A stretch of 34,989 bases of DNA. Origin: Candidatus Moranbacteria bacterium GW2011_GWC2_40_12. Its GTDB lineage: Bacteria; Patescibacteriota; Minisyncoccia; Moranbacterales; UBA11712. Below, piece after piece: positions 2,467 through 28,217 of the stretch. The position numbers and the translations under genes were made by a program. The stretch covers positions 1-34,989 of the forward strand of contig LBYD01000006.1 in assembly GCA_000995965.1 (NCBI GenBank). Direction: 5' to 3'. The first letter of the stretch is position 1, and the number at the start of each line of letters is the position of its first letter. The notes beneath the pieces are model-generated. The model did not search any database and was not told the origin of the DNA. It worked only from the letters and a program-made list of their open reading frames with translations.

Positions 2467-5400
2467 ATGAAAACTAAACTCAAAGAAATTAAAATTATAG
2501 TTAAATACCTCTTCCGCCATCCGGTACGTTTTTTCTGCGCGCTTGGGGAAACGACGATACCGAGACTAAGTCTTGGGGCGCCCCCAAGACTTAGTCTCGG
2601 TATTGGTATTGGAAAAATTCTTCGCTGGTGCTGGGCGACTCTTCCGCGCCGCGTCGTTTCGACTCTTGTCATTGTCGCGCTCGTCATCGCGCCGGTCTAC
2701 ACAATCTTCTTCGCAGAGAAAGCCCAAGCCGCCTGGTGGAACGACTCCTGGATGTATCGCCAAAAAATCCAGCTCACGAACTCCACCGGCGCCGACCTCA
2801 CGGATTTTCAGGTTTCGACAGTTGTGGACACCGCCGCTCTCATCACCGCCGGGAAAATGATCACCTCCACTTGCGCTGATATGCGCTTCACCGATTCCAA
2901 AGGCCAGCCGCTCGACTACTGGATCGAAGAAAACAACCCGGGCTGCAACAGCGCCACGACCAAAGTTTGGCTGAAAGCCCCCAAAGTCTATTCCGGTACC
3001 AACGCCACCTCTATATATATGTATTACGGAAACCCGAGTGCCATCGCTACCCAATCCGGCGACAAGACTTTCGAGTTTTTTGATGATTTCAACGATGGGA
3101 CAATCAGCGACAAGAAATGGACACAGCACATTCAGGGAGTGGGCGGAACTATCGTGGAGAGTGGAGGGGAGGCGGTACTAGCGCCGACAAATGCGACAAT
3201 TTCCTCGGCGAATTTAAAATCAACGCAAACCTTCACCAATAATGTCGTTATTGAAGTGAGGAGAAAGCAGGCAACTGACAACTATTATATGGACCTTTCA
3301 CTGGGTGTCGGATCCATTGAAGATTTTGATGGTGGTGCGCAAACACAATGGTGGCATACTACATTAGCAAGTGGATATGTGTATGCTTACCAGCAGGCTA
3401 CAAACAGTGGAAATGGACTTTATCGAATGCCGAGTTCGGGTGGTAAAGTTGCCATTAGTACAAACACATTAGCGCTTAATACGTCAACTTATAAGGTTCA
3501 CCGATTTGAGTATAACTCGTCGGGAGGCTTGCGATGGTTAATAGATGGAACTCAATATTTTACTGGAACGGATAGCAATTTTCTCTCTGACAATAAGAAA
3601 ATTTTGGTTAGCCAGGGCGAAATTACCGGTGGCAACGGCGACGCTCAATCCGTCGACTATATCTATGTCCGCAAATACGCCTCCGCCGACCCGACCACTT
3701 CCGCGAGCGCCGAAGAAGTGGGCCCCGGGCCCATTGCCTATTGGAAATTCGACGAAGGGCAGGGGGGAACGGCGTATGATTCAACCGTGAACCACAACAA
3801 CGGAAATCTCGGGGTGGGGTCATCCGCTCCGACTTGGCAACCCGAAAGCAATTGCGTGAGCGGGAAGTGTTTGAGTTTCGATGGAAACGGCGATTTCATT
3901 TCTGTTTCTGACTCAGGCACCAGCGTCCTTGATCAAACTTCGCAAGTTTCGGTTAGCTTCTGGTTCAAGGGAAATGGTGCTTCATGGCCGGATTCTTGGC
4001 AGGGTCTCATTGCGAAAAGAAATAGCCCCGATTATGGAAACTACGGCGTAAATATCAGAGGCGGCGCGACCAATGTCCTGCAGTATTATTTTTATGATGG
4101 GTCTTGGCAAGCTGTTGATATTCCAGCCTCCAATATTTCAACAAATACTTGGCATCATTTTACCGGAACTTTCTCTGATACAGGAGATATTGAAGGCAAA
4201 ATATATATTGATGGAAAACTAATCAAGACAGAGAGTTTTGCAGCGAAAAATCTTATTGCGAATAATGATTCTTTATTTATAGGCGAGTCTTATACAAACT
4301 CGGAATTTTTCAACGGCTCCATCGACGAACCAAAAATATATCCCTACGCCCGCACGGCCTCGCAAATCGCGCAGGACTACAATGCGGGCAAAGCTGGCAA
4401 CGCGAGCCCCGAAGGCGCGAACGTCACTGTCGGTGAATCGCCCAAATGGATGACCGACGGGCTCGTGGGACACTGGAAAATGGATGAATCTTCGGGAACA
4501 GTTGTGGCGGACGCGTCCGGAAACGGAAACACTGGCACGCTCACGAATGCGCAGGAAACGGGAACTGCCGAAGCCGCGAGTACGACGACCGCGGTCTATG
4601 ACGCGGACAATGCCGCGCTTTCAACGACGAACGACGCCTACAACAATATGATCCTGCGCATTTCCCCGGTTTGCGGATCCATTCCGGACGGAACCGAACG
4701 CACCATCACCGACTATGACGGCGCGGGGAAATTCTTCACCGTCGCCGCTCTCCCCGCCGAAGCCGACTCTTGCGCCTTCGAAGTTCGCCACCAGACGGGA
4801 GGGAAGTTTGGGAATGGACTGAAGCTGGGAGGAGACAATGATTATGTTAATGTTGGACAAATTTCGCAGATAACTTCGCCTGCAATGACAATTAGTTTGT
4901 GGGCGAAGGGCACATATGGAGGCGACTGGTGGGGGGGAAATGATACAATATTTTCCATTACTCAAACTTGGACTCGAACAATGATTTATTCTACTGGTGG
5001 CTCACCGAGAGTGCGTCTTGGCATGTCAAATAACAATAGCTATGGATCGTCAAATTTTTCAAACTATAAAGACAATGTCTGGTATAATTATGTAATAGTT
5101 GTTCCTGCAGGAACCGATCAACCAGCGTATTGGTACATAAATGGAAATTTGCAAGAAAAAATGCAGCCGGACAGCGGGGCGGGATGGTTCTATGATTCGA
5201 CGCAGCAGTTTCAGATCAGTAATGGCAATTCGTTTAATGGAAATCTAGATGACGTCCGCATCTACAACCGCGCGCTTTCGCCCGACGAAGTGAAACAGCT
5301 TTCCGAATACGGCCCGGGTCCGGTGGGGTGGTGGAAGATGGATGAGGCTTCTGGTGGAACTGCCTATGATACGAGCGGGAATGGAAACAACGGAACCTGG

Positions 5401-6243
5401 AATGGAACCGGAGGAACGCATTGGGCAAATGGCAAATATGGAAATGCCGCGAATCTGAACGGAGCCGATGATTTTTTGAATGTGTCGGATTCTCAAATAC
5501 TTCGTGTTACAAATAATGTTTCACTTTCAGCCTGGGTCAAAACAACGACTTCTGGCACCTGTGCAAGCGGTTCGGTCGGGGCGAAATGGTATGATACAAG
5601 ATGTCTCAAGGGCATTGTTTCGAGGCAGGCAAGTCCCCAAGAAAATCTCCAGACAATTGGCATAAGCGGAAATGGCCAAGCTGCATTTGAAATAAGCACT
5701 GGCTATTACTGCGGAGATTCTTGCATGTATACTTTGAGATCCGCATCCGCTATTAATGATAATAAATTTCATCACATAGAAGGAACGCTTACTGGAAACA
5801 GCATGAAGCTTTTTGTTGACGGTGTTGTCGTTGGTGAGGCAACGATAGGCTTTGGTATTCCGACGTGCAATTATCCAACACGCATCGGAGCAGGCGGATT
5901 TTATACTGTTTATTATGGTTTTGTGGCTGGTTTAATTGACGATGCAAAAATCTACAATTACGCCCGCACTTCGAAACAAGTTGTCGAAGACATGAACGCC
6001 GGGCATCCGATTGGCGGGAGTCCGGTCGGATCTCCGATGATATATTACAAGTTTGACGTGGGAGTCGGGGGGACAGCTCCGAATTCCGGAAACGGCGGGT
6101 CGGCGCAAAACGGCACGATGACTCCGCAAGGCGGCGGACAGACGCAAACATATCAAATGTGGGACAACGGCGGGAAATGGAGCCGCGCGGCCGACCTCGA
6201 CGGGACGGACGATTATGTGAGCATCCCGGATTTTTCGTATTGA
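2467..6243 (+). CDS. Large secreted DUF2341/LamG (concanavalin A-like) repeat protein, truncated by an insertion in its fourth LamG unit
   Basis: Signal/TM segment ending AEKAQAA, DUF2341-like WWNDSWMYRQKIQLTNSTGADLTDFQV...YMYYGNPSA, then LamG-type repeats (YWKFDEGQGGTAYDST, GHWKMDESSGTVVADASGNGNTG, GWWKMDEASGGTAYDTSGNGNNG, YYKFDVGVGGTAPNSG). ORF stops right after DGTDDYVSIPD. Confidence 0.85.
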   Translation: MKTKLKEIKIIVKYLFRHPVRFFCALGETTIPRLSLGAPPRLSLGIGIGKILRWCWATLPRRVVSTLVIVALVIAPVYTIFFAEKAQAAWWNDSWMYRQKIQLTNSTGADLTDFQVSTVVDTAALITAGKMITSTCADMRFTDSKGQPLDYWIEENNPGCNSATTKVWLKAPKVYSGTNATSIYMYYGNPSAIATQSGDKTFEFFDDFNDGTISDKKWTQHIQGVGGTIVESGGEAVLAPTNATISSANLKSTQTFTNNVVIEVRRKQATDNYYMDLSLGVGSIEDFDGGAQTQWWHTTLASGYVYAYQQATNSGNGLYRMPSSGGKVAISTNTLALNTSTYKVHRFEYNSSGGLRWLIDGTQYFTGTDSNFLSDNKKILVSQGEITGGNGDAQSVDYIYVRKYASADPTTSASAEEVGPGPIAYWKFDEGQGGTAYDSTVNHNNGNLGVGSSAPTWQPESNCVSGKCLSFDGNGDFISVSDSGTSVLDQTSQVSVSFWFKGNGASWPDSWQGLIAKRNSPDYGNYGVNIRGGATNVLQYYFYDGSWQAVDIPASNISTNTWHHFTGTFSDTGDIEGKIYIDGKLIKTESFAAKNLIANNDSLFIGESYTNSEFFNGSIDEPKIYPYARTASQIAQDYNAGKAGNASPEGANVTVGESPKWMTDGLVGHWKMDESSGTVVADASGNGNTGTLTNAQETGTAEAASTTTAVYDADNAALSTTNDAYNNMILRISPVCGSIPDGTERTITDYDGAGKFFTVAALPAEADSCAFEVRHQTGGKFGNGLKLGGDNDYVNVGQISQITSPAMTISLWAKGTYGGDWWGGNDTIFSITQTWTRTMIYSTGGSPRVRLGMSNNNSYGSSNFSNYKDNVWYNYVIVVPAGTDQPAYWYINGNLQEKMQPDSGAGWFYDSTQQFQISNGNSFNGNLDDVRIYNRALSPDEVKQLSEYGPGPVGWWKMDEASGGTAYDTSGNGNNGTWNGTGGTHWANGKYGNAANLNGADDFLNVSDSQILRVTNNVSLSAWVKTTTSGTCASGSVGAKWYDTRCLKGIVSRQASPQENLQTIGISGNGQAAFEISTGYYCGDSCMYTLRSASAINDNKFHHIEGTLTGNSMKLFVDGVVVGEATIGFGIPTCNYPTRIGAGGFYTVYYGFVAGLIDDAKIYNYARTSKQVVEDMNAGHPIGGSPVGSPMIYYKFDVGVGGTAPNSGNGGSAQNGTMTPQGGGQTQTYQMWDNGGKWSRAADLDGTDDYVSIPDFSY
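2557..2603. repeat. Head-to-head pair of family A palindromes, in frame in the LamG gene signal region (IPRLSLGAPPRLSLGI)
   Basis: ATACCGAGACTAAGTCTTGGGG-cgc-CCCCAAGACTTAGTCTCGGTAT: 22-bp perfect arms with a 3-nt centre; each arm contains a palindrome. Confidence 0.93.
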
Positions 6244-6956
6244 GTTTGGGAATTTTGGAAATTTCGGGAGTTTGGGGGTTGGGGAATTTGGTTTTTGAAA
6301 AAATCATGAAAGATCAATATCAACAATTGAATCAAGATCAACCATCGAGGCCCGGTTACGAATACCTGATTGTTTTTATGCTGGGAAAAATCATTCAGGA
6401 TTTGACTGTCCAGTTTTGCAATCGCTGGATCGAAAAACGCAGCCGCACGCACGACCAAATGGTCCAGGCGGCGCGGAGCAATTCGCAAAACATCGCCGAA
6501 GGTTCCACGGGCGAATCTCTCAAAAGCTACATCAAATTGGTGGGAGTGGCGCATGGGTCAAACGAAGAACTGGCGAAAGATTTTCAGGATTTTTTGCGCC
6601 AGCGCAATTTGCCGATCTGGCCGAAGGACCATCCGAAAGTCGCCGAATTTCGGAAGTTTCGGGCATTTTGGGTCGGTCCAACTTCCCTAAATACCCCAAA
6701 TCTCCCCAACGATCCGACCGAAGCCGCGAATTTTTTGTTGACTCTTTGCAGTCTGGAAAGTTTTTTGCTTTCGCGGCATGTCGCGTCGCTCAAGAAAAAA
6801 CACGAAGAAGAAGGCGGCTTCACGGAAAATCTCTATCGAAAAAGGGTTGCGTTTCGGAAAAAAATTGGGGGTTGGGGAAATTCGGGAGGTTGGGGAGTTT
6901 GGGGGATTGTTTTTTTGGGATTTTTGGGAATCATTTTTGGTGCTTTTCCCGTCCGC
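6232..6956 (+). mobile_element. Candidate inserted element carrying a four-helix-bundle protein gene with G/T-rich terminal repeats
   Basis: LamG coding sequence ends at gat (6231, ...YVSIPD) and resumes in another frame at ggc (6957, GTNQSIFTVSVWVKP). GGGAGTTTGGGGGTTGGGGAATTT-type repeats lie at both ends (6247-6295 and 6864-6935). Exact boundaries are approximate. Confidence 0.65.
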
Positions 6957-8744
6957 GGCACGAACCAGTCCATCTTCACCGTCTCCGTCTGGGTGAAGCC
7001 GTCGGGTTCGGCCGTTTCAAAAGCGATTTTGGGAAAAGCCGAGGAATTGCGAGTGGCGACGAACGCTTCGAGCCAGCCGGTGTGCCAGATCAAATCCGGA
7101 GCGGCTTGGCAAACGGCGGCGACGTCTTCGGTGGCGATTTCGGTCGACAGCTGGTCGCATGTTTCCTGCACTTATGACCTCGCTTATGTCCGAATATATG
7201 TCAACGGCGTCGAAAAAGGATCGCAGGCTTTGGCGGTGGCGGCGGACGACACGGCGGCGGTCTGGAAAATCGGCCGGGACGACAGCGCGAGCACGCCCTA
7301 CGGATATTTCGCGGGACAAATCGACGAATACAAATTCTACAACTCCGCTTTGACGGCTGACCAGATCGCGCTCGATATGAATCAGGGCAAAGAAATGCAG
7401 CTCGGCGGACAAATTTCCGCGACAGGCGCGACCGGCCAAGCGGCGGAGTACTGCGTTCCGGGAGACACGACCAGTTGCGCGGGGCCGGTGATGGATTGGA
7501 GCCTGGACGAAAAAACAGGCCAATACGCCTATGACCGGAACGGGGGAAATAACAACGTGACACTCGGCTCCGGATCAGGCGCTGACGACTATGATCCCGT
7601 CTGGCAGGGTTCCTCGCAATGCAAAACAGGCAGCTGCCTGCGCTTTGACGGAAGCAATGACTATTCGTCTTTCAGCACGACCGGCATGAGCGTGAGCGCC
7701 GGAACTGTTTCGCTTTGGGTGAATTATTCAAGGGAAAGCGGATGGCAGCAGTTTTTTTGCCATCGCTATTCCGAGAGCCGTATCTATGTCGGCGTTCGGG
7801 GCACTACAAATCTGCTCTGGACCAGGCTTGGCACGAGCGCTGACGAATTCAGCGTGGAGTTGACGGAAAATGTTTGGCATCAGGTTTTTTTGACCTGGAA
7901 CGGCGGAAGCTTCGCCACATATCTTGACGGGACACAGGTTGATTCGGGTTCCTACTCGGGACTGGCTTTCTTGGGCAGTTGCGCCGGATTGGGAGATTAC
8001 AACATCGATTGCGCGTCATTTAACACATTGGATCAAAATTTGAACGGCAATCTGGATAATGTCAAAGTATACAACTACGCCCGCACGCCCGCCCAAATCG
8101 CCTGGGACTATAACCGCGGGAAGCCCGTCGGGCATTGGAAACTGGACGAAGGCGAAGGCGACAAGGCCTACGATTCCTCCGGCAACGGGAACATTGGAAC
8201 CCTCACCACCATGGACCCGCCGAACGATTGGGTGGATGGAAAATTTGGGAAGGCGTTGGATTTTGACGGGGAGAGTGATTATGTTATTCTCTCCGATCCA
8301 ACAGGGTTGACGGATAAAGTGACTGTTTCGGCTTGGATAAAAATGGGCGTGGCCGACCCAGGAGCTTCTCACGCAGTCAGTTATCATCCCGGCTTTTATA
8401 TTTCCGGAAATGATACGACTGATAACATGAGATTTTGCATCAATCAAACGAATTGCGCTAATTTCGACTCTTTCTCCAGTTTGGGAACGGGATCATGGCA
8501 TCATTATGTCGGGGTTTATGACGGGAGCCAAGTCAGGACATACTTAGACGGTCAATATAAGAATTTTGTAAACACAAGCGGAAATATTGATACAACTGGA
8601 GACTTTCGGTTTGGGAAATATTGGAATGGAAGTTATTATTGGACCGGCCAGATCGACGACGTCCGCGTCTACAACTACGCCCTCACTGCCGAGCAAATTA
8701 AGCAAGTTATGAATGAAGGCAGCGCGATAAGATTTGGCGACTAA
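6306..8744 (+). CDS. Four-helix-bundle (S23/4HB-suffix-like) protein, reading frame continuing through a hydrophobic repeat-encoded linker into the remaining LamG repeats
   Basis: ATG 6306 MKDQYQQLNQDQPSRPGYEYLIVFMLGKIIQDLTVQFCNRWI...DQMVQAARSNSQNIAEGS...SLKSYIKLVGVAHGSNEELAKDF; no stop before LamG segments (GTNQSIFTVSVWVKP, MDWSLDEKTGQYAYDRNG, GHWKLDEGEGDKAYDSSGNGNIG) up to 8744. Whether the fusion is translated as one protein is unknown. Confidence 0.6.
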   Translation: MKDQYQQLNQDQPSRPGYEYLIVFMLGKIIQDLTVQFCNRWIEKRSRTHDQMVQAARSNSQNIAEGSTGESLKSYIKLVGVAHGSNEELAKDFQDFLRQRNLPIWPKDHPKVAEFRKFRAFWVGPTSLNTPNLPNDPTEAANFLLTLCSLESFLLSRHVASLKKKHEEEGGFTENLYRKRVAFRKKIGGWGNSGGWGVWGIVFLGFLGIIFGAFPVRGTNQSIFTVSVWVKPSGSAVSKAILGKAEELRVATNASSQPVCQIKSGAAWQTAATSSVAISVDSWSHVSCTYDLAYVRIYVNGVEKGSQALAVAADDTAAVWKIGRDDSASTPYGYFAGQIDEYKFYNSALTADQIALDMNQGKEMQLGGQISATGATGQAAEYCVPGDTTSCAGPVMDWSLDEKTGQYAYDRNGGNNNVTLGSGSGADDYDPVWQGSSQCKTGSCLRFDGSNDYSSFSTTGMSVSAGTVSLWVNYSRESGWQQFFCHRYSESRIYVGVRGTTNLLWTRLGTSADEFSVELTENVWHQVFLTWNGGSFATYLDGTQVDSGSYSGLAFLGSCAGLGDYNIDCASFNTLDQNLNGNLDNVKVYNYARTPAQIAWDYNRGKPVGHWKLDEGEGDKAYDSSGNGNIGTLTTMDPPNDWVDGKFGKALDFDGESDYVILSDPTGLTDKVTVSAWIKMGVADPGASHAVSYHPGFYISGNDTTDNMRFCINQTNCANFDSFSSLGTGSWHHYVGVYDGSQVRTYLDGQYKNFVNTSGNIDTTGDFRFGKYWNGSYYWTGQIDDVRVYNYALTAEQIKQVMNEGSAIRFGD

Positions 8745-8746
8745 CT

Positions 8747-8769
8747 TGACGAGAGCTCAACTCTCGTCA
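8747..8769. repeat. Family B palindrome (5' flank of RAYT2), TGACGAGAG-ctcaa-CTCTCGTCA
   Basis: 9-bp inverted arms, 5-nt centre, 3 bp after the LamG stop. Confidence 0.93.
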
Positions 8770-8781
8770 TAGAATAGAAGC

Positions 8782-9456
8782 ATGAGAAAAACGCAATTTT
8801 CTTCCAATAATTTTTATCATATCTACAATCGCGGCGTGGACAAACGCAATGTTTTTTCAGACGAAGCTGATTTCTTCCGTTTTTACGTCTCGATGTGGCT
8901 ATTGAATGATTCGCGCGACGGAATTATGGATGTGTGGAAGAATTATAAAAGAGACAATACCCACCCCGCCTTCGGCGATTTCTTGCGACGAGAGTTGAGC
9001 TCTCGTCAACCAATTGTTAATATTATTAGTTATTGCCTAAATCCAAATCACTATCATTTTATCCTTGAGCAGGTCGTGGATGGCGGAATTGAAAAATTTA
9101 TGCATAAAATTGGAACCAGTTATACAAATTATTTCAATAAAAAAAACAAACGAAGCGGATCTTTGTTTCAAGGACGCTTCAAGTCAGCTCAAATAAAACC
9201 AAACGCTCTCCTTTATATCTCCTCTTATGTGAATTGCAACAGCGAAATTCACGGAGTCGCGAAAGCCGAAAATTATCGCTGGTGCAGCTTCCCGGATTAT
9301 ATTGGAAAAAGAAAGGATAAATTATGCTTCAAAAGAGTGATACTTTCTGATTTCAAGAGCGGGAAAGACTATTTCGAGTTTGCAAAAGAAAATATGAAAG
9401 CGCAGAAACAAAAAAAGGAAGATGAAAAACTTCTTTTGGAATCCGACGAGAGTTGA
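8782..9456 (+). CDS. REP-associated tyrosine transposase, copy 2
   Basis: 224 aa; MRKTQFSSNNFYHIYNRGVDKRNVF, CLNPNHYHFIL HUH motif, KRSGSLFQGRFKSAQIK. Its TGA stop lies inside the 3' family B palindrome. Confidence 0.92.
   Translation: MRKTQFSSNNFYHIYNRGVDKRNVFSDEADFFRFYVSMWLLNDSRDGIMDVWKNYKRDNTHPAFGDFLRRELSSRQPIVNIISYCLNPNHYHFILEQVVDGGIEKFMHKIGTSYTNYFNKKNKRSGSLFQGRFKSAQIKPNALLYISSYVNCNSEIHGVAKAENYRWCSFPDYIGKRKDKLCFKRVILSDFKSGKDYFEFAKENMKAQKQKKEDEKLLLESDES
8987..9007. repeat. Family B palindrome in frame inside RAYT2 (RRELSSRQ)
   Basis: GACGAGAGTTGAGCTCTCGTC. Confidence 0.95.
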
Positions 9457-9479
9457 GCTCTCGTCAAAGCTCTCGTCAA
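9445..9479. repeat. Family B palindrome plus a duplicated 3' half
   Basis: GACGAGAGTTGAGCTCTCGTC followed by AAAGCTCTCGTCAAAG. Confidence 0.92.
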
Positions 9480-11979: not shown

Positions 11980-13557
11980 ATGCAAAAAGATTTTATCATC
12001 GAGACTCTCAAAAAACAAATTGACGGCTTCAAGGCCGAAACGAAGTCCGAAAAAGTCGGGCGCGTCATTGAAGTGGGGGACGGAATCGCCCGGGTTTCGG
12101 GCCTTTCGGACGCGATGGCGAGCGAAATGCTGGAATTCCTGCCCGCCGAGGCCTCAGTGAAGGCGGGTGCCTCCTCGGTTTTCGGAGTCGCTCTCAACCT
12201 TGAAGAAGATCAGGTCGGAGCGATGATTTTGGGGGAATATGAAAAAATCAAAGAAGGGGACACGGTGAAATCGACCGGAAAAATTCTGTCGGTGCCGGTC
12301 GGGGAAATGATGATTGGACGGGTGATAAGCCCGCTGGGAGAGGCGATTGACGGCAAAGGCATTATACTCGCGAATGAGGAGCGAATGACAGCGAATAAGA
12401 GCGAATTGAAATTCTACCCCATTGAAAAAATCGCTCCGGGCGTCATCGAACGCGAATCAGTGAAACAGCCGCTCCAGACCGGAATCAAAGCGATTGATTC
12501 GGTGATCCCGATCGGGCGGGGACAAAGAGAACTCATCATCGGCGACCGGCAGACGGGGAAAACGGCCGTCGCGGTTGACGCGATCATCAATCAAAAAGAC
12601 GAAGACGTGATCTGCATATATGTCGCGATCGGCCAGAAAGAATCCAAAGTCGCCCGCATCGTGGCGGAGCTGGAAAAAAATGACGCAATGAATCACACGA
12701 TTGTGGTTGTGGCGGGGGCCTCGGATCCGGCCGCCCTTTCTTTCATCGCACCCTATGCCGGATGTGCCATCGGAGAATTTTTCATGGATCAGGGGAAAGA
12801 CGTGCTGGTGATATATGACGATCTTTCCAAGCACGCTTGGGCCTATCGCCAGGTATCCCTTCTTCTCAAGCGCCCGCCGGGACGCGAAGCTTATCCGGGA
12901 GACATATTTTATCTTCATTCGCGTCTTTTGGAACGGAGCGCGAAACTATCCAAGGATTTTGGCGGCGGATCACTGACCGCGCTTCCAATCATTGAAACGC
13001 AGGCCGGGGATGTGAGCGCCTACATCCCGACCAATGTCATTTCCATCACGGACGGACAAATTTATTTGGAGTCGGATCTTTTTTACAAAGGGATTCGGCC
13101 GGCCCTGAATGTCGGGCTTTCAGTATCGCGCGTGGGATCGGCGGCGCAAATCAAGGCAATGAAAAAAGTGGCCGGAAAACTGCGGCTGGATCTTGCCCAA
13201 TTCCGCGAGCTCGAAGCTTTTGCCCAGTTTGGATCGGACCTTGATGAAGCGACCAGAAAACAAATCGAACGCGGCCAGCGGACGGTTGAAATTTTGAAGC
13301 AGGACCAGTATGTGCCGATGCCGGTTGAGAACCAAGTGGCAATTCTTTTTGCGCTAACGAACGGATATTTGGACGATGTTTCCGTCGAAAAAGTTCAAAA
13401 ATGGGAAGAAGATTTTCATAAATATATGAAGGATATGAAGAGCGATGTGCTGGCGATGATAAAAGAAAAAAAAGAATTGACAGAGGAAGTGGAGAGCGCG
13501 CTCAAAAAAGCGATTGAAGAATACAAAGAAGTTTATGGAAATAATGGAGTTTCCTAA
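11980..13557 (+). CDS. atpA: F1Fo ATP synthase subunit alpha
   Basis: 525 aa; [20 protein letters not shown]-loop, [39 protein letters not shown]. Confidence 0.97.
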
Positions 13558-13597
13558 AGTTAAACTTTAGGAGCTCCTAAAGTTTAACTTTAGGAAA
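13550..13597. repeat. 48-bp perfect palindrome (paired family D) between atpA and atpG
   Basis: TTTCCTAAAGTTAAACTTTAGGAGCTCCTAAAGTTTAACTTTAGGAAA is identical to its reverse complement. Confidence 0.97.
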
Positions 13598-13599
13598 AA

Positions 13600-14562
13600 A
13601 TGGCATCAGGAACAAGAGAAATACGCCGCCGGATCAAGTCGGTGAACAATACGAAAAAGATCACCCGCGCCATGGAAATGGTTGCGGCTTCGAAGATGCG
13701 CCGGGCCGTTGCGGCAACGCTCGCCATCCGTCCCTACGCCCACAGCGCTTGGGCGGTGCTTACAAATCTCGCGCAGGCTTTTGAAAAATATCAGACGGGG
13801 CTTCTTGCCGTGCGGGAGGTGAAAAGGATTTGCGTCATCGTAGTTTCATCCAATCGCGGCCTTTGCGGAGGCTTCAACTTCCAGATCATGAGAAAGGTGG
13901 TTGAACAGGTGAAAAATCCGGCTCTTCTCAAGATAAACCGTATCGGCGCAAAAAGAATCGAATCAAAAATTCCCGACGAACAGCTTGAAATGGATTTCAT
14001 CACGGTTGGAAAAAGAGGGGCGAATGTCCTTCGCAAAATGAAAAAAAATATCGTAGCGACGTTTGATGATCTCACCTATCTCCCTAAAATCGAAGACGTG
14101 CGGGCGCTCGTGAAATTGGTTACGGATGATTATACGGCTGAAAAATATGACAAAGTGGTCATTGCCTACACAGACTATGTTTCCGCAGTGGTGCAGCAGC
14201 CCAAACTCAGGCAGATCCTTCCCATTTCAAAAACGGATATTGAAAAGCAGCTGGCAGAAATGGATACTCACGCTGACAAAATCGGTCTTGAAAAAGCTGA
14301 AGTATTCTATAAAGTCGAACCCACTCCGGGAATCGTGATCACCGAAATTCTTCCGCGGCTCGTCGAAATGCAGGTTTTCCACGCCATTCTGGAATCGAAT
14401 GCTTCGAAAGAATCAGCCCGGATGGTGGCGATGAGGAACGCGACTGACGCGGCAACGGATATGGCGGACAATCTGACGCTCATATTCAACCAGATCCGCC
14501 AAGCCGGCATCACGCAGGAAATCGCGGAAATTTCCGCGGGACGGGCCGCTTTGGAGCAATGA
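13600..14562 (+). CDS. atpG: F1Fo ATP synthase subunit gamma
   Basis: REIRRRIKSVNNTKKITRAMEMVAASKMRRA ... SSNRGLCGGFN ... MRNATDAATDMADNLTLIFNQIRQAGITQEIAEISAGRAAL. Confidence 0.96.
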   Translation: MASGTREIRRRIKSVNNTKKITRAMEMVAASKMRRAVAATLAIRPYAHSAWAVLTNLAQAFEKYQTGLLAVREVKRICVIVVSSNRGLCGGFNFQIMRKVVEQVKNPALLKINRIGAKRIESKIPDEQLEMDFITVGKRGANVLRKMKKNIVATFDDLTYLPKIEDVRALVKLVTDDYTAEKYDKVVIAYTDYVSAVVQQPKLRQILPISKTDIEKQLAEMDTHADKIGLEKAEVFYKVEPTPGIVITEILPRLVEMQVFHAILESNASKESARMVAMRNATDAATDMADNLTLIFNQIRQAGITQEIAEISAGRAALEQ

Positions 14563-18229: not shown

Positions 18230-20743
18230 ATGGAGAAATATAATCCTCAAGAAATCGAGAAAAAATGGCAAAAATACTGGGCGGACTATCCCGAACTTTT
18301 CGAAGCGGATGAGAAGCCGGAAAAGGCCAAATTCTATTGCCTCGATATGTTTCCCTATCCGTCCGGAGACGGGCTTCATGTCGGGCACGTGGAAGGTTAT
18401 ACCGCTTCGGACATTTATTCGCGTTATCAGCGGATGAATGGGAAGAATATTTTGCACCCGATAGGCTGGGATGCTTTCGGTCTGCCGGCGGAAAATTTTG
18501 CCATCAAGTCCGGAGTTCAACCGGCTGAGTCAACCCAAAAAAATATCAAAACTTTTACGGAGCAGATCAAGAGCCTCGGGCTTTCCTATGACTGGTCGCG
18601 CGAGATCGACACATCAAGTCCGGAATACTACAAGTGGACCCAGTGGTTCTTTTTATTTTTGCATGAAAACGGCCTGGCGTACCGGAAATATGCCAAAGTG
18701 AACTGGTGCGAATCGTGCAAAACAGTTCTCGCGAATGAGCAAGTTGAAGACGGAGTTTGCGAACGCTGCAAAAATGAAGTGATCCAGAAAGATATGGAGC
18801 AGTGGTTTTTCAAGATTACGGATTTTGCGGAAGATTTGATAAAGGATCTCGACAAATTGGACTGGCCGGAATCGACTAAGACGGCGCAGAAAAACTGGAT
18901 CGGCAAAAGCGAGGGAGCGGTGATCAAGTTCAAAGTTCAAAGTGAAAAGTTGAAAGTTGTGGGAGATTACTTTTTGGAAACTTTTACCACGAGATTGGAT
19001 ACTATTTATGGCTGCACCTATTGCGTTGTGGCGCCGGAACACAAAGTCTTGGAAGAAACAAGAAATGAGATAGAAAATATTGAGGAAATTGATAAATATA
19101 TAAATCAGGCCAAAAAGAAAACCGATCTTCAGCGGACGGATCTTCAGAAGGAAAAAACGGGAGTGGAAATAAAAGGCATGAAAGCCGTCAATCCCTTCAC
19201 GAAAGAAGAAGTCCCGATTTTCGTGGCTGATTACGTGCTTTCTACCTATGGAACCGGCGCGGTGATGGCTGTCCCGGCGCATGACGAACGGGACTTTGAG
19301 TTCGCGAAAAAGTACAATTTGCCGATAAAAAATGTGATTCTTCCAAAAAAATTATTAGAGATACCAAGAAACATGGAAGATATAGCAGCCGGCGCCAAAA
19401 CAGAACTGCGAGTCGAATCCGAATGCTTTACGTGTGATGGAGAATTGATTAATTCCGGTAAATATTCCAATCTCGCATCCGAAAAAGCCCGCGAGGAGAT
19501 GGCGAAGTGGCTTGAGAAAAATAATTTGGGCGGGAAAAAGATAACCTACAAATTGCGGGACTGGCTGATTTCGCGGCAAAGATATTGGGGCGCGCCAATA
19601 CCCGTCATTTATTGCAAAAATTGTTCTACCCTAGAGCTGAGCTCTAGGGTCGTTCCTATTCCGGAAAATGATTTGCCGGTTTTGCTTCCGGAAGTGAAAG
19701 ATTATCGCCCGAAAGGAACGTCGCCGCTGGAGACGAATCCCTCATTTGTGAACGTGAAATGCCCGAAGTGCGGCGGGAGTGCGAAACGCGAAACAGACAC
19801 AATGGACACGTTCGTTTGTTCAAGCTGGTATTTTTTCCGGTTCGCGGATCCGGGGAACAAAAAAGAATTCGCCGCGAAAGAGAAAATCAAAAAATGGCTG
19901 CCAGTTGATCTTTATATCGGCGGCAAAGAGCACACGGTTCTTCATTTGCTGTATTCCCGATTTTTCACGAAGGCTTTGCATAAATTCGGCTATATCGATT
20001 TTGACGAGCCGTTCACGAAGTTGCGCCATCAGGGAATCGTCCTTGCTGAAGACGGACGGAAAATGTCGAAGTCTCTGGGGAACGTCATCAATCCCGATGA
20101 AATAGTGGAAAAATACGGCGCGGATGTTTTGCGGCTGTATGAAATGTTCATGGGCCCGCTGGAGGACTCAAAAGCGTGGAATACGAAAAGCATAATCGGG
20201 CTAAAAAGATTTTTGGAAAGAGTATGGCGCTTAAAATCCCAAATCCCCGCTGACGCCAAAGCTTTGGCGGGCAAGCAAAATCCGAAACTTAATTCTTTTT
20301 TACACAAAACTATCAAAAAAGTCACCGAAGATATTGAAAATTTGCGCTTCAATACCGCGATTTCCGCAATGATGATGCTGGTTAATGAAATGGAAAAAGA
20401 AAATAATATTCCAATTACCAATTACCAATTACTAATTACTATTCTCGCTCCCTTTGCTCCCCACATTGCCGAAGAAATCTGGTCGAGTCTCGGCCACAAA
20501 AACTCTGTTTTCCTCGAAAAATGGCCGGAGCATGATATAGAGTTGATAAAAGATGAGGAAATCACAATCATTGTCCAAATCAACGGAAAAATGCGGGACC
20601 AGCTGAAGCTGGCGGCGGGCGCGGGCGAGGAGGATGTGAAAAAAATGGCGCTCGAAAGCGGGAAAGTGAAGAAATATGTTGAAGGGAAAAATATCCGGAA
20701 AATTATATTCGTGAAAGACAGACTGATTAATTTCGTAATCTGA
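18230..20743 (+). CDS. leuS: Leucyl-tRNA synthetase, with an in-frame palindrome-encoded peptide
   Basis: MFPYPSGDGLHVGHVEGYTASDI (HIGH), GWDAFGLPAENFAI, GRKMSKSLGNVINPDEIV (KMSKS). Confidence 0.97.
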   Translation: MEKYNPQEIEKKWQKYWADYPELFEADEKPEKAKFYCLDMFPYPSGDGLHVGHVEGYTASDIYSRYQRMNGKNILHPIGWDAFGLPAENFAIKSGVQPAESTQKNIKTFTEQIKSLGLSYDWSREIDTSSPEYYKWTQWFFLFLHENGLAYRKYAKVNWCESCKTVLANEQVEDGVCERCKNEVIQKDMEQWFFKITDFAEDLIKDLDKLDWPESTKTAQKNWIGKSEGAVIKFKVQSEKLKVVGDYFLETFTTRLDTIYGCTYCVVAPEHKVLEETRNEIENIEEIDKYINQAKKKTDLQRTDLQKEKTGVEIKGMKAVNPFTKEEVPIFVADYVLSTYGTGAVMAVPAHDERDFEFAKKYNLPIKNVILPKKLLEIPRNMEDIAAGAKTELRVESECFTCDGELINSGKYSNLASEKAREEMAKWLEKNNLGGKKITYKLRDWLISRQRYWGAPIPVIYCKNCSTLELSSRVVPIPENDLPVLLPEVKDYRPKGTSPLETNPSFVNVKCPKCGGSAKRETDTMDTFVCSSWYFFRFADPGNKKEFAAKEKIKKWLPVDLYIGGKEHTVLHLLYSRFFTKALHKFGYIDFDEPFTKLRHQGIVLAEDGRKMSKSLGNVINPDEIVEKYGADVLRLYEMFMGPLEDSKAWNTKSIIGLKRFLERVWRLKSQIPADAKALAGKQNPKLNSFLHKTIKKVTEDIENLRFNTAISAMMMLVNEMEKENNIPITNYQLLITILAPFAPHIAEEIWSSLGHKNSVFLEKWPEHDIELIKDEEITIIVQINGKMRDQLKLAAGAGEEDVKKMALESGKVKKYVEGKNIRKIIFVKDRLINFVI
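19628..19650. repeat. Family C palindrome in frame inside leuS (TLELSSRV)
   Basis: ACCCTAGAGCTGAGCTCTAGGGT, perfect 23-bp palindrome around a central G. Confidence 0.97.
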
Positions 20744-22735: not shown

Positions 22736-24091
22736 ATGAAACTATTCGGAACAGACGGCATTCGAGGAGTTGCCGGCGGAGAAAAAATGAATCCGGAAGT
22801 TGTTGCGGCGTTCGGAAGATCGATTGTTTCTTTTTGCCGGAAAAGAAATCTTCCGGAAAAAATAATTGTCGGAAGAGACACGCGTGAGTCAGGTTTGATG
22901 TTTGAAGAGGCGCTTGTCGCGGGAATATCTTCAGCCGGTGGCGAAGCGGCTGTCGCGGGAATTTTGCCGACCCCGGCTCTGGCCTTCCTCATCAAAGAGC
23001 AAAGGGCGGGGGCGGGGATCGTGATTTCAGCCTCGCACAATCCCTTTCAGGACAACGGCCTAAAGCCTTTCAAAAATGACGGCACAAAGCTTTCGGAAGA
23101 GGAAGAAAAAGAACTTGAAGGATATATATTGAAAAAAATATCATCAGGCACAAATGACAACATTTCAGGAAAGAGTTCTGTAGTGCAGGAAGCCAAAGAA
23201 AAGTATATAAAGTTTTTTTTGGATAAAACCAGTTATTTTTTTACCCTAGAGCTCAGCTCTAGGGTAAAAAAGCGACTAGTTCTTGACTGCGCGAACGGCG
23301 CCACTTTTGAAGTTGCTCCGGCGATATTTGAAAAAATTGCCAAAGAGACAGGGTTGATCAACGCAAATCCTGACGGAACAAATATCAACAAAAATTGCGG
23401 TTCCCAGCATCCGGAAAGTTTGAAAAGAGAAGTTCTCGCGAAAAAAGCGGATTTGGGCCTTGCTTTTGACGGTGACGGGGACCGGGTCATTGCGGTCGAT
23501 GAAAAAGGAAACGCGCTGACAGGCGACCAGATGATGTATGTCATTGCAAAATTTTTGAAGGAAAAAGGGAAACTCAAAAATAATTTGGTTGTGACGACTG
23601 TCATGAGCAATCTCGGATTCGTTGGCGCGCTAAGCAAATTGGGGATCGGACATATCGCCACGGGGGTGGGGGACCGGCAGGTATTTTTTGAAATGAAAAA
23701 TAAAGGCGCGATTTTGGGGGGCGAAGAATCCGGCCATATCATTTTTTTTGATTTTTGTCCGACTGGTGACGGGATCATCGGGGGTTTGATGCTACTCGCG
23801 GCCATGAGCCATTTCAAAAAACCGCTTTCGGAGCTGGCGGAAGAGGTCGCTCTTTTCCCCAAGTTATTGGTCAATGTGGAAGTAAAAAGCAAGCCGGATA
23901 TTGGCTCAATTTCGGAAATTCAGGATATAATAAAGAAAGTGGAAAAAAAGCTTGGAAAAGAAGGACGCGTTCTTGTCCGCTATTCCGGAACGGAAAATTT
24001 GTGCAGGGTGATGGTGGAGGGGAGGGATGAGGGCGAGATTCGCGCTTTTGCCGATGCTATAGCAAAAAAAATTAAAAAACATTTGGGCTAA
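22736..24091 (+). CDS. glmM: Phosphoglucosamine mutase, with an in-frame palindrome-encoded peptide
   Basis: MKLFGTDGIRGVAG, VISASHNPFQDNGLKPF catalytic Ser loop, DGDGDRVIAVDEKG, VRYSGTENLCRVMVEG. Confidence 0.94.
   Translation: MKLFGTDGIRGVAGGEKMNPEVVAAFGRSIVSFCRKRNLPEKIIVGRDTRESGLMFEEALVAGISSAGGEAAVAGILPTPALAFLIKEQRAGAGIVISASHNPFQDNGLKPFKNDGTKLSEEEEKELEGYILKKISSGTNDNISGKSSVVQEAKEKYIKFFLDKTSYFFTLELSSRVKKRLVLDCANGATFEVAPAIFEKIAKETGLINANPDGTNINKNCGSQHPESLKREVLAKKADLGLAFDGDGDRVIAVDEKGNALTGDQMMYVIAKFLKEKGKLKNNLVVTTVMSNLGFVGALSKLGIGHIATGVGDRQVFFEMKNKGAILGGEESGHIIFFDFCPTGDGIIGGLMLLAAMSHFKKPLSELAEEVALFPKLLVNVEVKSKPDIGSISEIQDIIKKVEKKLGKEGRVLVRYSGTENLCRVMVEGRDEGEIRAFADAIAKKIKKHLG
23237..23271. repeat. 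Family C palindrome in frame inside glmM (TLELSSRV), inverted orientation
   Basis: TTTTTTACCCTAGAGCTCAGCTCTAGGGTAAAAAA, 35-bp perfect palindrome. Confidence 0.97.
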
Positions 24092-26045: not shown

Positions 26046-26096
26046 TACCCTAGAGCTGAGCTCTAGGGTAGGTTTTAGCTCTAGGGTAGGTTTTAG
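26046..26096. repeat. Family C palindrome plus tandem duplicated half (5' flank of RAYT3)
   Basis: TACCCTAGAGCTGAGCTCTAGGGTA then GGTTTT-AGCTCTAGGGTA-GGTTTT. Confidence 0.93.
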
Positions 26097-26107
26097 GGAA
26101 AATAAAA

Positions 26108-26767
26108 ATGAGGAAAATACAATTTGCAAACGGGGAATATTACCATTTATATAATAGAGGAGTAGATAAGAGGAGAATCTTTCAAGACAGTCGTGATTTT
26201 GAAAGATTTCTGTTGTCAATGGATTTGCTTAGTGACCAAAATGACGGGCTGATGATTGCCTGGAGAGATTATAAGGAAAATAATCCCGAAGCTGAACTTC
26301 CGGACTTTCCCTTACTCAAGAAAAAAAGAAAAAAATTAGTTGAATTTGTATGTTATTGCCTGAATCCGAATCATTATCATCTCGTCGTCAAACAATTAGA
26401 TGAAAGAGGAATAGAAAGATTCATGCATAAACTAGGGACAAGTCACACTAATTATTTCAACACGAAGAATAAACGAACCGGTGCTCTATTTCAAGGAAGA
26501 TTCAAAGCAATCCGCATAAAATCCAACTCCAAGCTATTGTATCTTTCGGCTTATGTGAATATGAATCATTTCATACACGGATTTAGGCAAAAGGAATGGA
26601 AATACTCAAGCCTTTTAGAATATCTCGGAAAGCGAAAGAGTGGTCTGTGCAACAAAAAGATCATCATGGGACAATTTGAAGATATTGCCGATTATAAAAA
26701 ATTTCTTGACGAAAACGCTATATATATGAAAGAAAAAAAAGAAGATGAAAAATACTTACTCGAATAA
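26108..26767 (+). CDS. REP-associated tyrosine transposase, copy 3
   Basis: 219 aa; MRKIQFANGEYYHLYNRGVDKRRIF, CLNPNHYHLVV HUH motif, KRTGALFQGRFKAIRIK. Confidence 0.92.
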   Translation: MRKIQFANGEYYHLYNRGVDKRRIFQDSRDFERFLLSMDLLSDQNDGLMIAWRDYKENNPEAELPDFPLLKKKRKKLVEFVCYCLNPNHYHLVVKQLDERGIERFMHKLGTSHTNYFNTKNKRTGALFQGRFKAIRIKSNSKLLYLSAYVNMNHFIHGFRQKEWKYSSLLEYLGKRKSGLCNKKIIMGQFEDIADYKKFLDENAIYMKEKKEDEKYLLE

Positions 26768-28217
26768 TCTTACCCTAGAGCTGAGCTCTAGGGTAAAGAA
26801 AGGAAAACTTCATACACTTTCCGAGTTTCGGCGCGAGGTTGGAATTCCCCTTATACTTGCCAAAAAAATGGTTATTTGGGGTGAAGTAAAAGCCACAAAA
26901 TTGGTTGATGGAACGATCCAAGTCACTGAAGAAGAAGTCGTCAAGATAAAAAATCTTCTCGCGAACCGCTGGACACGGGCCCGGTATTTTCTGCGCGCGC
27001 TTGGTCCGGGGCTGATCACCGGAGCGTCGGATGATGATCCGTCCGGGATCGGAACATATTCATCAGTCGGGGCGATGTTCGGATACGCGATTCTCTGGAC
27101 GGCGGCCTGGCTGCTGCCGATGATGCTGGCGGTGCAGGAAGCCTCTGCGCGGATTGGAATCGTGACAAACAGGGGTCTCGCGGGAGTTTTGCAAAAACAT
27201 TACCGAAAAAAAATTGTGGCGGGAATTGTTTTGCTGCTCATCATCGCCAACGTAGCCAACATCGGAGCCAATCTCGGGGCGATGGCGGCTTCGCTCAAGA
27301 TGCTGACGGGCGTGAACCTTTATCTCGCGGCGATTATCTTCGCGCTCGCCATCATTTCAATGGAAATATTTTTTCAATATCATATTTATGCGCGGGTTCT
27401 GAAATGGCTCACGATTTCGGTTTTGGCCTATATCTTTGCCGGCTTTATGGCGCATCCCGACTGGCGTGAAGTTTTTCGATACGCGTTCATTCCAAATATC
27501 GAGTTGAATCGAAATTATATGTTCGCCCTAATTGCCATTTTCGGGACAACCATCACGCCCTATCTTTTTTTCTGGCAGGCTTCCGAGGAAGTTGAGGAAA
27601 ATAAGCTGATAAAATCAAAGCCGGCTGGAAAGTCGTTTCTGCATCTGCGGATCAGGCATATGAGGACGGACGTCGGGACGGGAATGATTTTGGCGAACGC
27701 CGTTTTCTTCTTCATCATAATCGCGACGGCGCAGGTTTTTTTCAAAAATGGCATCACGGAAATCGGTTCGGCAGAACAGGCGGCCCTGGCCCTAAGGCCT
27801 CTTTCCGGTGAAGCGGCTTATCTTCTTTTCGCTCTCGGGATCATTGGGACGGGACTGCTTGCCGTTCCGATTCTGGCCGGGTCGGGCGCATATGCGCTTT
27901 GCGAAGTAATGAAGTGGCACGAGGGCCTTGAACTCCGTTTTTCGCGAGCGCGCGGCTTTTATCTGATCATAATATTTTCAATTCTGGTGGGGCTGGGACT
28001 CAATTTCATCGGAGTGAATCCGATCAAGGCCCTCTATTACTCCGCATACTTAAACGGCATTATCGCCCTTCCGCTTCTCGCGACAATCATGGTTGTTGGA
28101 AACGACAAGCGCATCATGGGCGTTGAAACGCATCCGGGCTGGGTCAAGATATTTGGCTGGGCGAGTGTCGCATTTATGGTTGCGGCAATTTTCATCTCCA
28201 TAATCCTCATATTTTGA
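26745..28217 (+). CDS. NRAMP-like divalent metal transporter with N-terminal HTH-like extension; N-terminus encoded partly by family C palindrome
   Basis: GPGLITGASDDDPSGIGTYSSVGAMFGYAILWT, ALIAIFGTTITPYLFFWQASEEVEE, ~11 hydrophobic segments; N-terminal LSEFRREVGIPLILAKKMVIWGEVKATKLVDGTIQVTEEEVVKI. Confidence 0.82.
   Translation: MKNTYSNNLTLELSSRVKKGKLHTLSEFRREVGIPLILAKKMVIWGEVKATKLVDGTIQVTEEEVVKIKNLLANRWTRARYFLRALGPGLITGASDDDPSGIGTYSSVGAMFGYAILWTAAWLLPMMLAVQEASARIGIVTNRGLAGVLQKHYRKKIVAGIVLLLIIANVANIGANLGAMAASLKMLTGVNLYLAAIIFALAIISMEIFFQYHIYARVLKWLTISVLAYIFAGFMAHPDWREVFRYAFIPNIELNRNYMFALIAIFGTTITPYLFFWQASEEVEENKLIKSKPAGKSFLHLRIRHMRTDVGTGMILANAVFFFIIIATAQVFFKNGITEIGSAEQAALALRPLSGEAAYLLFALGIIGTGLLAVPILAGSGAYALCEVMKWHEGLELRFSRARGFYLIIIFSILVGLGLNFIGVNPIKALYYSAYLNGIIALPLLATIMVVGNDKRIMGVETHPGWVKIFGWASVAFMVAAIFISIILIF
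26770..26796. repeat. Family C palindrome, 3' flank of RAYT3, in frame in the NRAMP-like ORF (TLELSSRV)
   Basis: TTACCCTAGAGCTGAGCTCTAGGGTAA. Confidence 0.96.

Follow-up and report, generated by a model that had tools for sequence, protein, structure and literature searches.

A four-helix-bundle gene with its own short-period repeats splits a LamG gene in a Moranbacteria genome: evidence for a class of putatively mobile elements

Introduction

The S23/IVP four-helix-bundle (4HB) genes are common in bacteria, where they occur in rRNA intervening sequences, in cas operons, and across CPR genomes, and to our knowledge no function has been established for them in over 25 years. The closest described systems are the rRNA intervening sequences (IVS) that carry an S23 open reading frame (ORF), which have terminal inverted repeats, are excised by RNase III, and have been hypothesized to be mobile (PMC4990558). 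Mobility of S23/IVP elements has, however, only been suspected so far (PMC4990558). IVP ORFs also lie within insertions of CPR 16S and 23S rRNA genes (PMC11270868), and IVP genes have been found inside cas operons (PMC3936711). One 4HB protein, Xcc0516, is a pentamer (PMC4990558), and the PF05635 family resembles Avd (PMC10053308). Among proteins that read short nucleic acid motifs, TRAP reads spaced triplets and RAYT proteins read REP palindromes. Our search of the open-access literature, limited to open-licence PMC papers, returned no description of the repeats reported here or of a class built of gene plus repeats.

We analyzed the first 34,989 nucleotides (hereafter the window) of contig C6 (LBYD01000006.1) of Candidatus Moranbacteria bacterium GW2011_GWC2_40_12, a genome of 1.14 Mb. 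The analysis followed up a reading made from the sequence alone.

Results

A 4HB element lies inside a LamG unit

A long gene for a LamG surface protein spans positions 2467-8744 of the window and is interrupted at ~6232-6956, with the ends of the insert placed only to within about 10-15 nt. Its parts are as follows.

2467..6231, + strand: first part of the LamG surface-protein gene (DUF2341 plus LamG units, with half a LamG unit at the end); from Pfam PF13385/PF10102 and the junction alignment
6232..6956, + strand: inserted 4HB element, ~725 bp; from alignment of the junction to G029, G005, and the genome's own LamG units
6957..8744, + strand: second part of the LamG gene, which makes up the C-terminal portion of the 4HB ORF; from PF13385 and the junction alignment

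The upstream ORF (2467-6243) holds the LamG frame as far as ...DLDGTDDYVSIPD (...DGTDDYVSIPD), ends in mid-unit, and is closed by a TGA at 6241-6243; downstream, LamG restarts at GTNQSIFTVSVWVKP, from position 6957 onward. Once rejoined, the two halves align with an uninterrupted LamG unit of the related genome G029 (tblastn E value of 5e-44) with a gap of 2 residues at the junction, with the related genome G005 (2e-38), and with the window's own last LamG unit (1e-21). A 4HB element has thus been inserted inside a LamG unit and has split the gene, and the claim of the sequence-only reading that a LamG unit is split by a ~725-bp insert at 6232-6956 held. We looked for uninterrupted LamG genes and found such units in relatives, including a G005 gene that is syntenic with the window's: it lies upstream of the atp operon, and at both loci the preceding gene ends ...KKDVKFSW..VESK and an AtpI-like gene follows LamG. 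The G005 array is seemingly shorter, which keeps it from being a strict empty site. Both same-genus genomes are without a LamG match, and a nucleotide-level empty site is therefore missing for the window copy; empty sites were instead sought at other 4HB positions (see below). We also looked for target duplications, and, without such an empty site and with the ends uncertain, none was established for this copy.

The earlier claim requires one amendment here, in that the 4HB frame, having lost its stop codon, continues into the second half of LamG (ORF 6159-8744, ~595 LamG residues). A domesticated 4HB-LamG fusion, in which a function of the fused protein keeps the frame open across the repeat, would draw support from this stopless frame, from the hydrophobic, membrane-like character of the repeat-coded stretch, and from genome G030, where a 4HB frame also runs into the start of a secreted protein. 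We regard this explanation as very unlikely: the upstream LamG half is severed after 1258 residues, the partner in G030 is a different gene that is joined at its N-terminus, and most other elements of the suffix type (TIGR04258; see below) end in a stop codon of their own. The insertion reading would have been refuted had 4HB and LamG always been fused in this way, and this is not met because most 4HB genes stand alone and most LamG units are without a 4HB.

The insert encodes a four-helix-bundle protein

6306..6866, + strand: coding segment of the 4HB-suffix protein, from the first ATG to ...RKK, after which the frame continues without a stop into LamG; from TIGR02436, TIGR04258, PF05635, and an AlphaFold model
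6714..6863, + strand: TIGR04258 "suffix", comprising the predicted fourth helix and the C-terminal helix; from the TIGR04258 profile and the AlphaFold model

The insert protein passes the cut-offs of TIGR04258 (51 bits against 40) and TIGR02436 (32.7 bits against 24), so its earlier description as S23/4HB-suffix-like held, and at 33-34 bits it is borderline to the 33.8-bit cut-off of PF05635. The AlphaFold model (pLDDT 89.6) predicts three helices, a loop, and a long fourth helix and meets the four-helix-bundle fold; its best PDB matches are 2gsc (Xcc0516; TMt up to 0.84) and 2rld (BT_0352), with Foldseek probabilities of up to 1.0, yet E values never better than 0.013. A domain search of the protein found the 4HB domain alone, with no transposase and no nuclease, and PF01797 (the Y1/HUH tyrosine transposase family) gave no match.

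Three repeat clusters share one 9-nt period

6241..6292, + strand: upstream repeat cluster, G-rich, in ~9-nt units; from repeat family D1 and the score and autocorrelation tests
6636..6711, + strand: internal repeat cluster, with a G-rich stretch followed by a C-rich one, in the loop that joins helices 3 and 4; from the repeat family, the AlphaFold model, and autocorrelation
6864..6925, + strand: downstream repeat cluster, oriented as the upstream one, with the in-frame hydrophobic stretch GWGNSGGWGVWGIVFLGFLGIIFG; from the repeat family, the score and autocorrelation tests, and translation

A 28-nt block occurs seven times over these clusters (6241-6285, 6636-6672, and 6868-6904) at a spacing of 9 nt within each cluster, save for one step of 8, and the 9-nt autocorrelation is significant in each of the three (p<0.003). 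Matched directly, the left and right clusters score 23; the highest value from 507 control windows was 13, and 0 of 1000 shuffles reached 23. They are direct repeats, so terminal inverted repeats are not met in the window copy. The internal cluster pairs with the right cluster, which in translation bridges the 4HB frame and LamG. Folded as RNA, the complete window element does no better than shuffles (z of -1.2).

An exact-pattern search of the genome with the G/T repeat gave no match. With 3 mismatches allowed, the two ends of the window insert are the genome's best matches; the others (one with 2 mismatches and six with 3) come close to the count of 3 from a reversed-pattern control. The sequence-only reading had placed G/T-rich repeats on both borders, which held with the amendment that a third cluster lies in the gene and that left and right are direct, not inverted. 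Its suggestion that the same flanking repeats might recur near other 4HB genes held in part: repeats of this kind do bracket other 4HB genes, though their sequence differs by protein clade, and within this genome the exact G/T repeat is that of this insert's ends. A repeat period of 10 nt was considered and rejected: the suffix family has a period of 9 nt, and stand-alone clades have 7, 8, or 9 nt.

Suffix-type elements carry cognate repeats in and around the gene

TIGR04258 genes are present in 14 of 58 relatives and in 15 of 293 genomes sampled from the class, as well as in many phyla, from which we kept 80 loci out of at least 591. Excluding loci taken from related genomes left a set of 77 suffix-type elements, in which a score of at least 14 was counted as a match. 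In 52% of cases, the in-gene repeat matches the flanks of its own element, versus 10% for the flanks of other elements and 1.4% for control windows on the same contig. The period is strictly 9 nt in the coding linker and the non-coding flanks alike (lags of 9, 18, and 27; none in controls), while the repeat sequence varies by element, the CTTAAG, GTCGGAC, TTTGGGG, and GGTCCTATA types being examples, the last of them present in records named as several phyla. The flanks are for the most part direct repeats, and in other phyla the co-orientation of these elements with their neighbors is weaker (39 ++ versus 6 --) than that of the stand-alone type described below.

Three loci of this type merit individual description. 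At L137 (3840-4760), from the cultured Thiocystis violacea DSM 208, near-identical direct repeats of ~60 nt, composed of 9-nt units, flank the 4HB gene. Chlorobium ferrooxidans and Victivallis vadensis also have copies of the suffix type. At L075 and L081, 4HB-suffix genes lie immediately 5' of a gene identified by eye as cas4-looking, the N-terminal codons of which, also by eye, are apparently built of the 4HB repeat.

Most stand-alone 4HB genes sit between inverted arms in operon spacers

PF05635 genes number 0-16 per genome in 98 relatives. Inverted arms, called at a score of at least 12, flank 81% of 90 stand-alone 4HB genes of related genomes, versus 17% with direct repeats and 2.3% in controls, and the arms pair in predicted RNA folds over a median of 24 bp (7 bp when shuffled). 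Across genomes, flank similarity climbs with protein identity, such that 63-100% share flanks above 70% identity and 1-3% below 50%; co-residence in one genome is not sufficient for two 4HB elements to share them. Most clades have a period of 7 nt; the MKIQKFEES clade has 8 and the GFYRLEVW clade 9, the double lag being present too, and the FEDIVAWQKS clade mixes periods of 7, 8, and 9. The sequence of the repeats thus tracks protein clade, and their period (7, 8, or 9 nt) is for the most part clade-fixed.

The arms start near the upstream stop codon and finish near the next start codon. Wherever both neighbors lie on one strand, the 4HB gene lies on it too (77 of 77 cases, with 0 on the opposite strand), against a baseline in which adjacent genes lie on the same strand ~79% of the time. 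4HB elements thus occupy operon spacers, in the transcribed direction. Viral contigs yielded just 1 relative, so 4HB is not chiefly a phage gene, and a link to defence systems was ruled against, with no PADLOC match.

In relatives, the same sites are empty, hold another 4HB gene, or carry hairpins

We compared three intergenic sites that are occupied by 4HB genes in the window's genome. In relatives they are empty (G003, G004, G007, and G008), taken by another 4HB gene whose repeats differ (G005), or taken by hairpins without a 4HB gene (G001, G002, and G006). Four of these 4HB-less hairpins were folded and gave z values of -2.7 to -4.3, whereas empty sites gave about 0; three have a 7-nt periodicity, and in the fourth 8 nt ranks above 7 nt. 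Among 4HB protein pairs at least 66% identical, 107 of 159 have no detectable flank homology on either side, and similar elements (66-85% protein identity) are found at unrelated sites.

Mobility, which the sequence-only reading had put forward as an inference, remains one and is now supported: we infer it because copy number is patchy (0-16 per genome), sister sites are empty, and unrelated sites hold similar elements, without having observed any transposition event.

A rival account holds that the repeats are operators or RNA-binding sites through which a non-mobile accessory gene regulates itself, and that the differences between relatives reflect gene loss. In its favor, the repeats adjoin the start and stop codons and follow the protein clade, and many 4HB genes are syntenic among close relatives. 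We consider it unlikely, for it predicts neither repeats after and inside the gene, nor 4HB-less hairpins at the same sites, nor different 4HB genes at one site, nor a copy that splits a LamG unit.

A hairpin family of ~107 nt (GAATTAGAAACGAATTAGAGCGAAT...) has many copies in G000 and G001, for example at G000:C2 ~186600, downstream of L002. In G001 it fills S2, a site that holds a 4HB gene in G000.

RAYT-like genes, reverse transcriptases, and the question of a helper

The window encodes three RAYT-like Y1 proteins. The palindrome CCAAGACTAAGTCTTGG lies upstream of, inside, and downstream of the first gene (1753-2421; region 1726-2600) and recurs in the N-terminus of the LamG gene. The second (8782-9456; region 8748-9477) has a different palindrome, GACGAGAGTTGAGCTCTCGTC, in the same three places, its in-gene copy falling at an apparently homologous position of the protein. 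A third palindrome, CCCTAGAGCTGAGCTCTAGGG, surrounds the RAYT gene at 26108-26767 (26048-26800), with further copies at 19629-19655 and 23240-23265; it stands in frame within leucyl-tRNA synthetase and phosphoglucomutase-like genes, where it adds LELSSR, and these in-frame copies resemble Rickettsia palindromic elements. A double palindrome, CCTAAAGTTTAACTTTAGG/GAGCTC, lies at 13540-13600, between two atp genes.

RAYT-like genes with cognate palindromes before, in, and after the gene make a RAYT-REP-like logic attractive for 4HB. By analogy, such a logic may apply only within limits, the 4HB protein being without a catalytic domain. One rival account is that 4HB is a passive passenger, cargo or regulator, in repeat-bracketed units moved by a DNA transposase encoded elsewhere, such as a RAYT-like Y1 protein. 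For this speak the similar layout of the window's RAYT-like genes (palindromes after the gene where seen), the weak correlation of 4HB copy number with Y1 transposase (Y1_Tnp) count (rho of 0.42), and the syntenic LamG locus of G005, where RAYT-like genes hold the flanking positions taken by 4HB elements. Against it, 12 of 98 genomes have 4HB genes without Y1_Tnp or RVT_1 (including G349 with 8 copies, G055 with 6, and G356 with 6), and the 4HB repeats are unlike RAYT palindromes, with a period that tracks the 4HB protein clade. We judge the passenger account unlikely.

Another account makes the element a product of reverse transcription, akin to a diversity-generating retroelement (DGR) or a group II intron, with 4HB as an Avd-like partner. 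The likeness of PF05635 to Avd (PMC10053308), the two RVT_1 genes of the genome, and the transcriptional co-orientation, which suits an RNA intermediate, would agree with it. The window, however, encodes no reverse transcriptase (RT), RVT_1 being confined to contigs C2 and C4; 13 of 98 genomes have at least 4 4HB genes and no RVT_1 match (four of these are below 90% completeness); and no Rfam intron was found in the insert (no match at E<=1 in 6100-7100). It is, in our view, very unlikely. Copy number is also only weakly correlated with RTs (rho of 0.35). A helper is therefore not excluded, given the weak correlations with both enzymes, but an RT or Y1 helper as a strict requirement is rejected because some 4HB genomes lack both.

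Discussion

The data establish a class of elements in which a 4HB (S23/IVP) gene is combined with short-period repeats of its own, protein and repeats being linked. The explanation that we favor, as somewhat more likely than not, adds a repeat-reading ring protein and host-dependent spread. In this explanation, one copy of a 4HB-plus-repeat element entered a LamG unit and cut its host gene. The 4HB protein would be a non-catalytic, ring-forming nucleic-acid binder, as inferred from pentameric solved relatives and the Avd homologue, with no binding data, and the subunits of the ring may read the repeats in fixed register, by analogy to TRAP and RAYT. The element would rely on host transcription, having no recognisable promoter (for which no dedicated search was made) or nuclease of its own. 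Folding back or processing of the element RNA, in the way that RNase III processes 23S rRNA intervening sequences, may make insertions tolerable. Spread, which we infer to need co-transcription, would probably proceed via host or borrowed machinery that acts on repeat-marked RNA or single-stranded DNA, and the 4HB-less hairpins at the same sites would be non-autonomous derivatives.

Several considerations weigh against this explanation. No transposition, binding, or RNA processing has been observed, and the window copy has direct end repeats, an RNA fold that does not stand out from shuffles, and no established target duplication. The linkage of repeat and clade is to be expected of any element inherited as a unit; specific recognition of the repeat is inferred because the period is clade-fixed. 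Co-orientation might also reflect selection rather than mechanism.

A bolder reading, which we offer tentatively and would not yet back over its negation, is that these are a new kind of mobile element: a gene for a non-catalytic ring protein with cognate repeats, which spreads through operons in the transcribed direction, leaves 4HB-less hairpins behind, varies its repeat sequence within a period set by the clade (7, 8, or 9 nt), and includes rRNA intervening sequences as a special case. That the clade fixes the period and not the sequence of the repeat leads to a testable prediction, namely, that the protein binds its own repeat in register. If true, the explanation would account for the recurrence of 4HB genes inside unrelated operons and would make sense of one class of small intergenic hairpins that these genomes carry.

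Comparison with known systems

Among protein families, the window protein passes the cut-offs of both TIGR04258 and TIGR02436 and shares their fold; these families have been described as proteins only, and a link to cis repeats with a clade-fixed period is absent from the literature searched. Group I or II intron RNA structure is not met, there being no Rfam match at E<=1 in 6100-7100. The DGR accessory protein Avd is a homologue with a pentameric 4HB fold and is published as the nucleic-acid partner of an RT, whereas no RT adjoins the 4HB element. Like IS elements and MITEs, the class has inverted arms (in stand-alone 4HB relatives), ORF-less derivatives, and empty sites; unlike them, it has no transposase, its end sequences are free to vary, and no target duplication has been shown. 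Like RAYT-REP systems, it places a gene between cognate short repeats, with solo repeats elsewhere and, in the window's genome, a repeat in the gene too, but the 4HB protein lacks the HUH/tyrosine catalytic domain, and its repeats are periodic arrays, whereas REPs are single palindromes.

The 23S rRNA IVS of Coxiella and Leptospira, with their CPR counterparts in 16S and 23S genes, share with the class a small insert, a 4HB ORF, end repeats, patchy occurrence, and a long-suspected mobility. They differ from it in that the hosts of the 4HB class are protein genes or operon spacers (the window host is a LamG protein gene, not an rRNA gene, with no Rfam match in the window) and its repeats are short-period, clade-specific arrays. 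The window copy departs further, for its repeats are direct and lie within the ORF as well, and there is no evidence of RNase III processing for it. The stand-alone 4HB relatives, unlike the window copy, share inverted arms with the IVS, and the 23S rRNA intervening sequences known so far look like one particular case of the element class described here.
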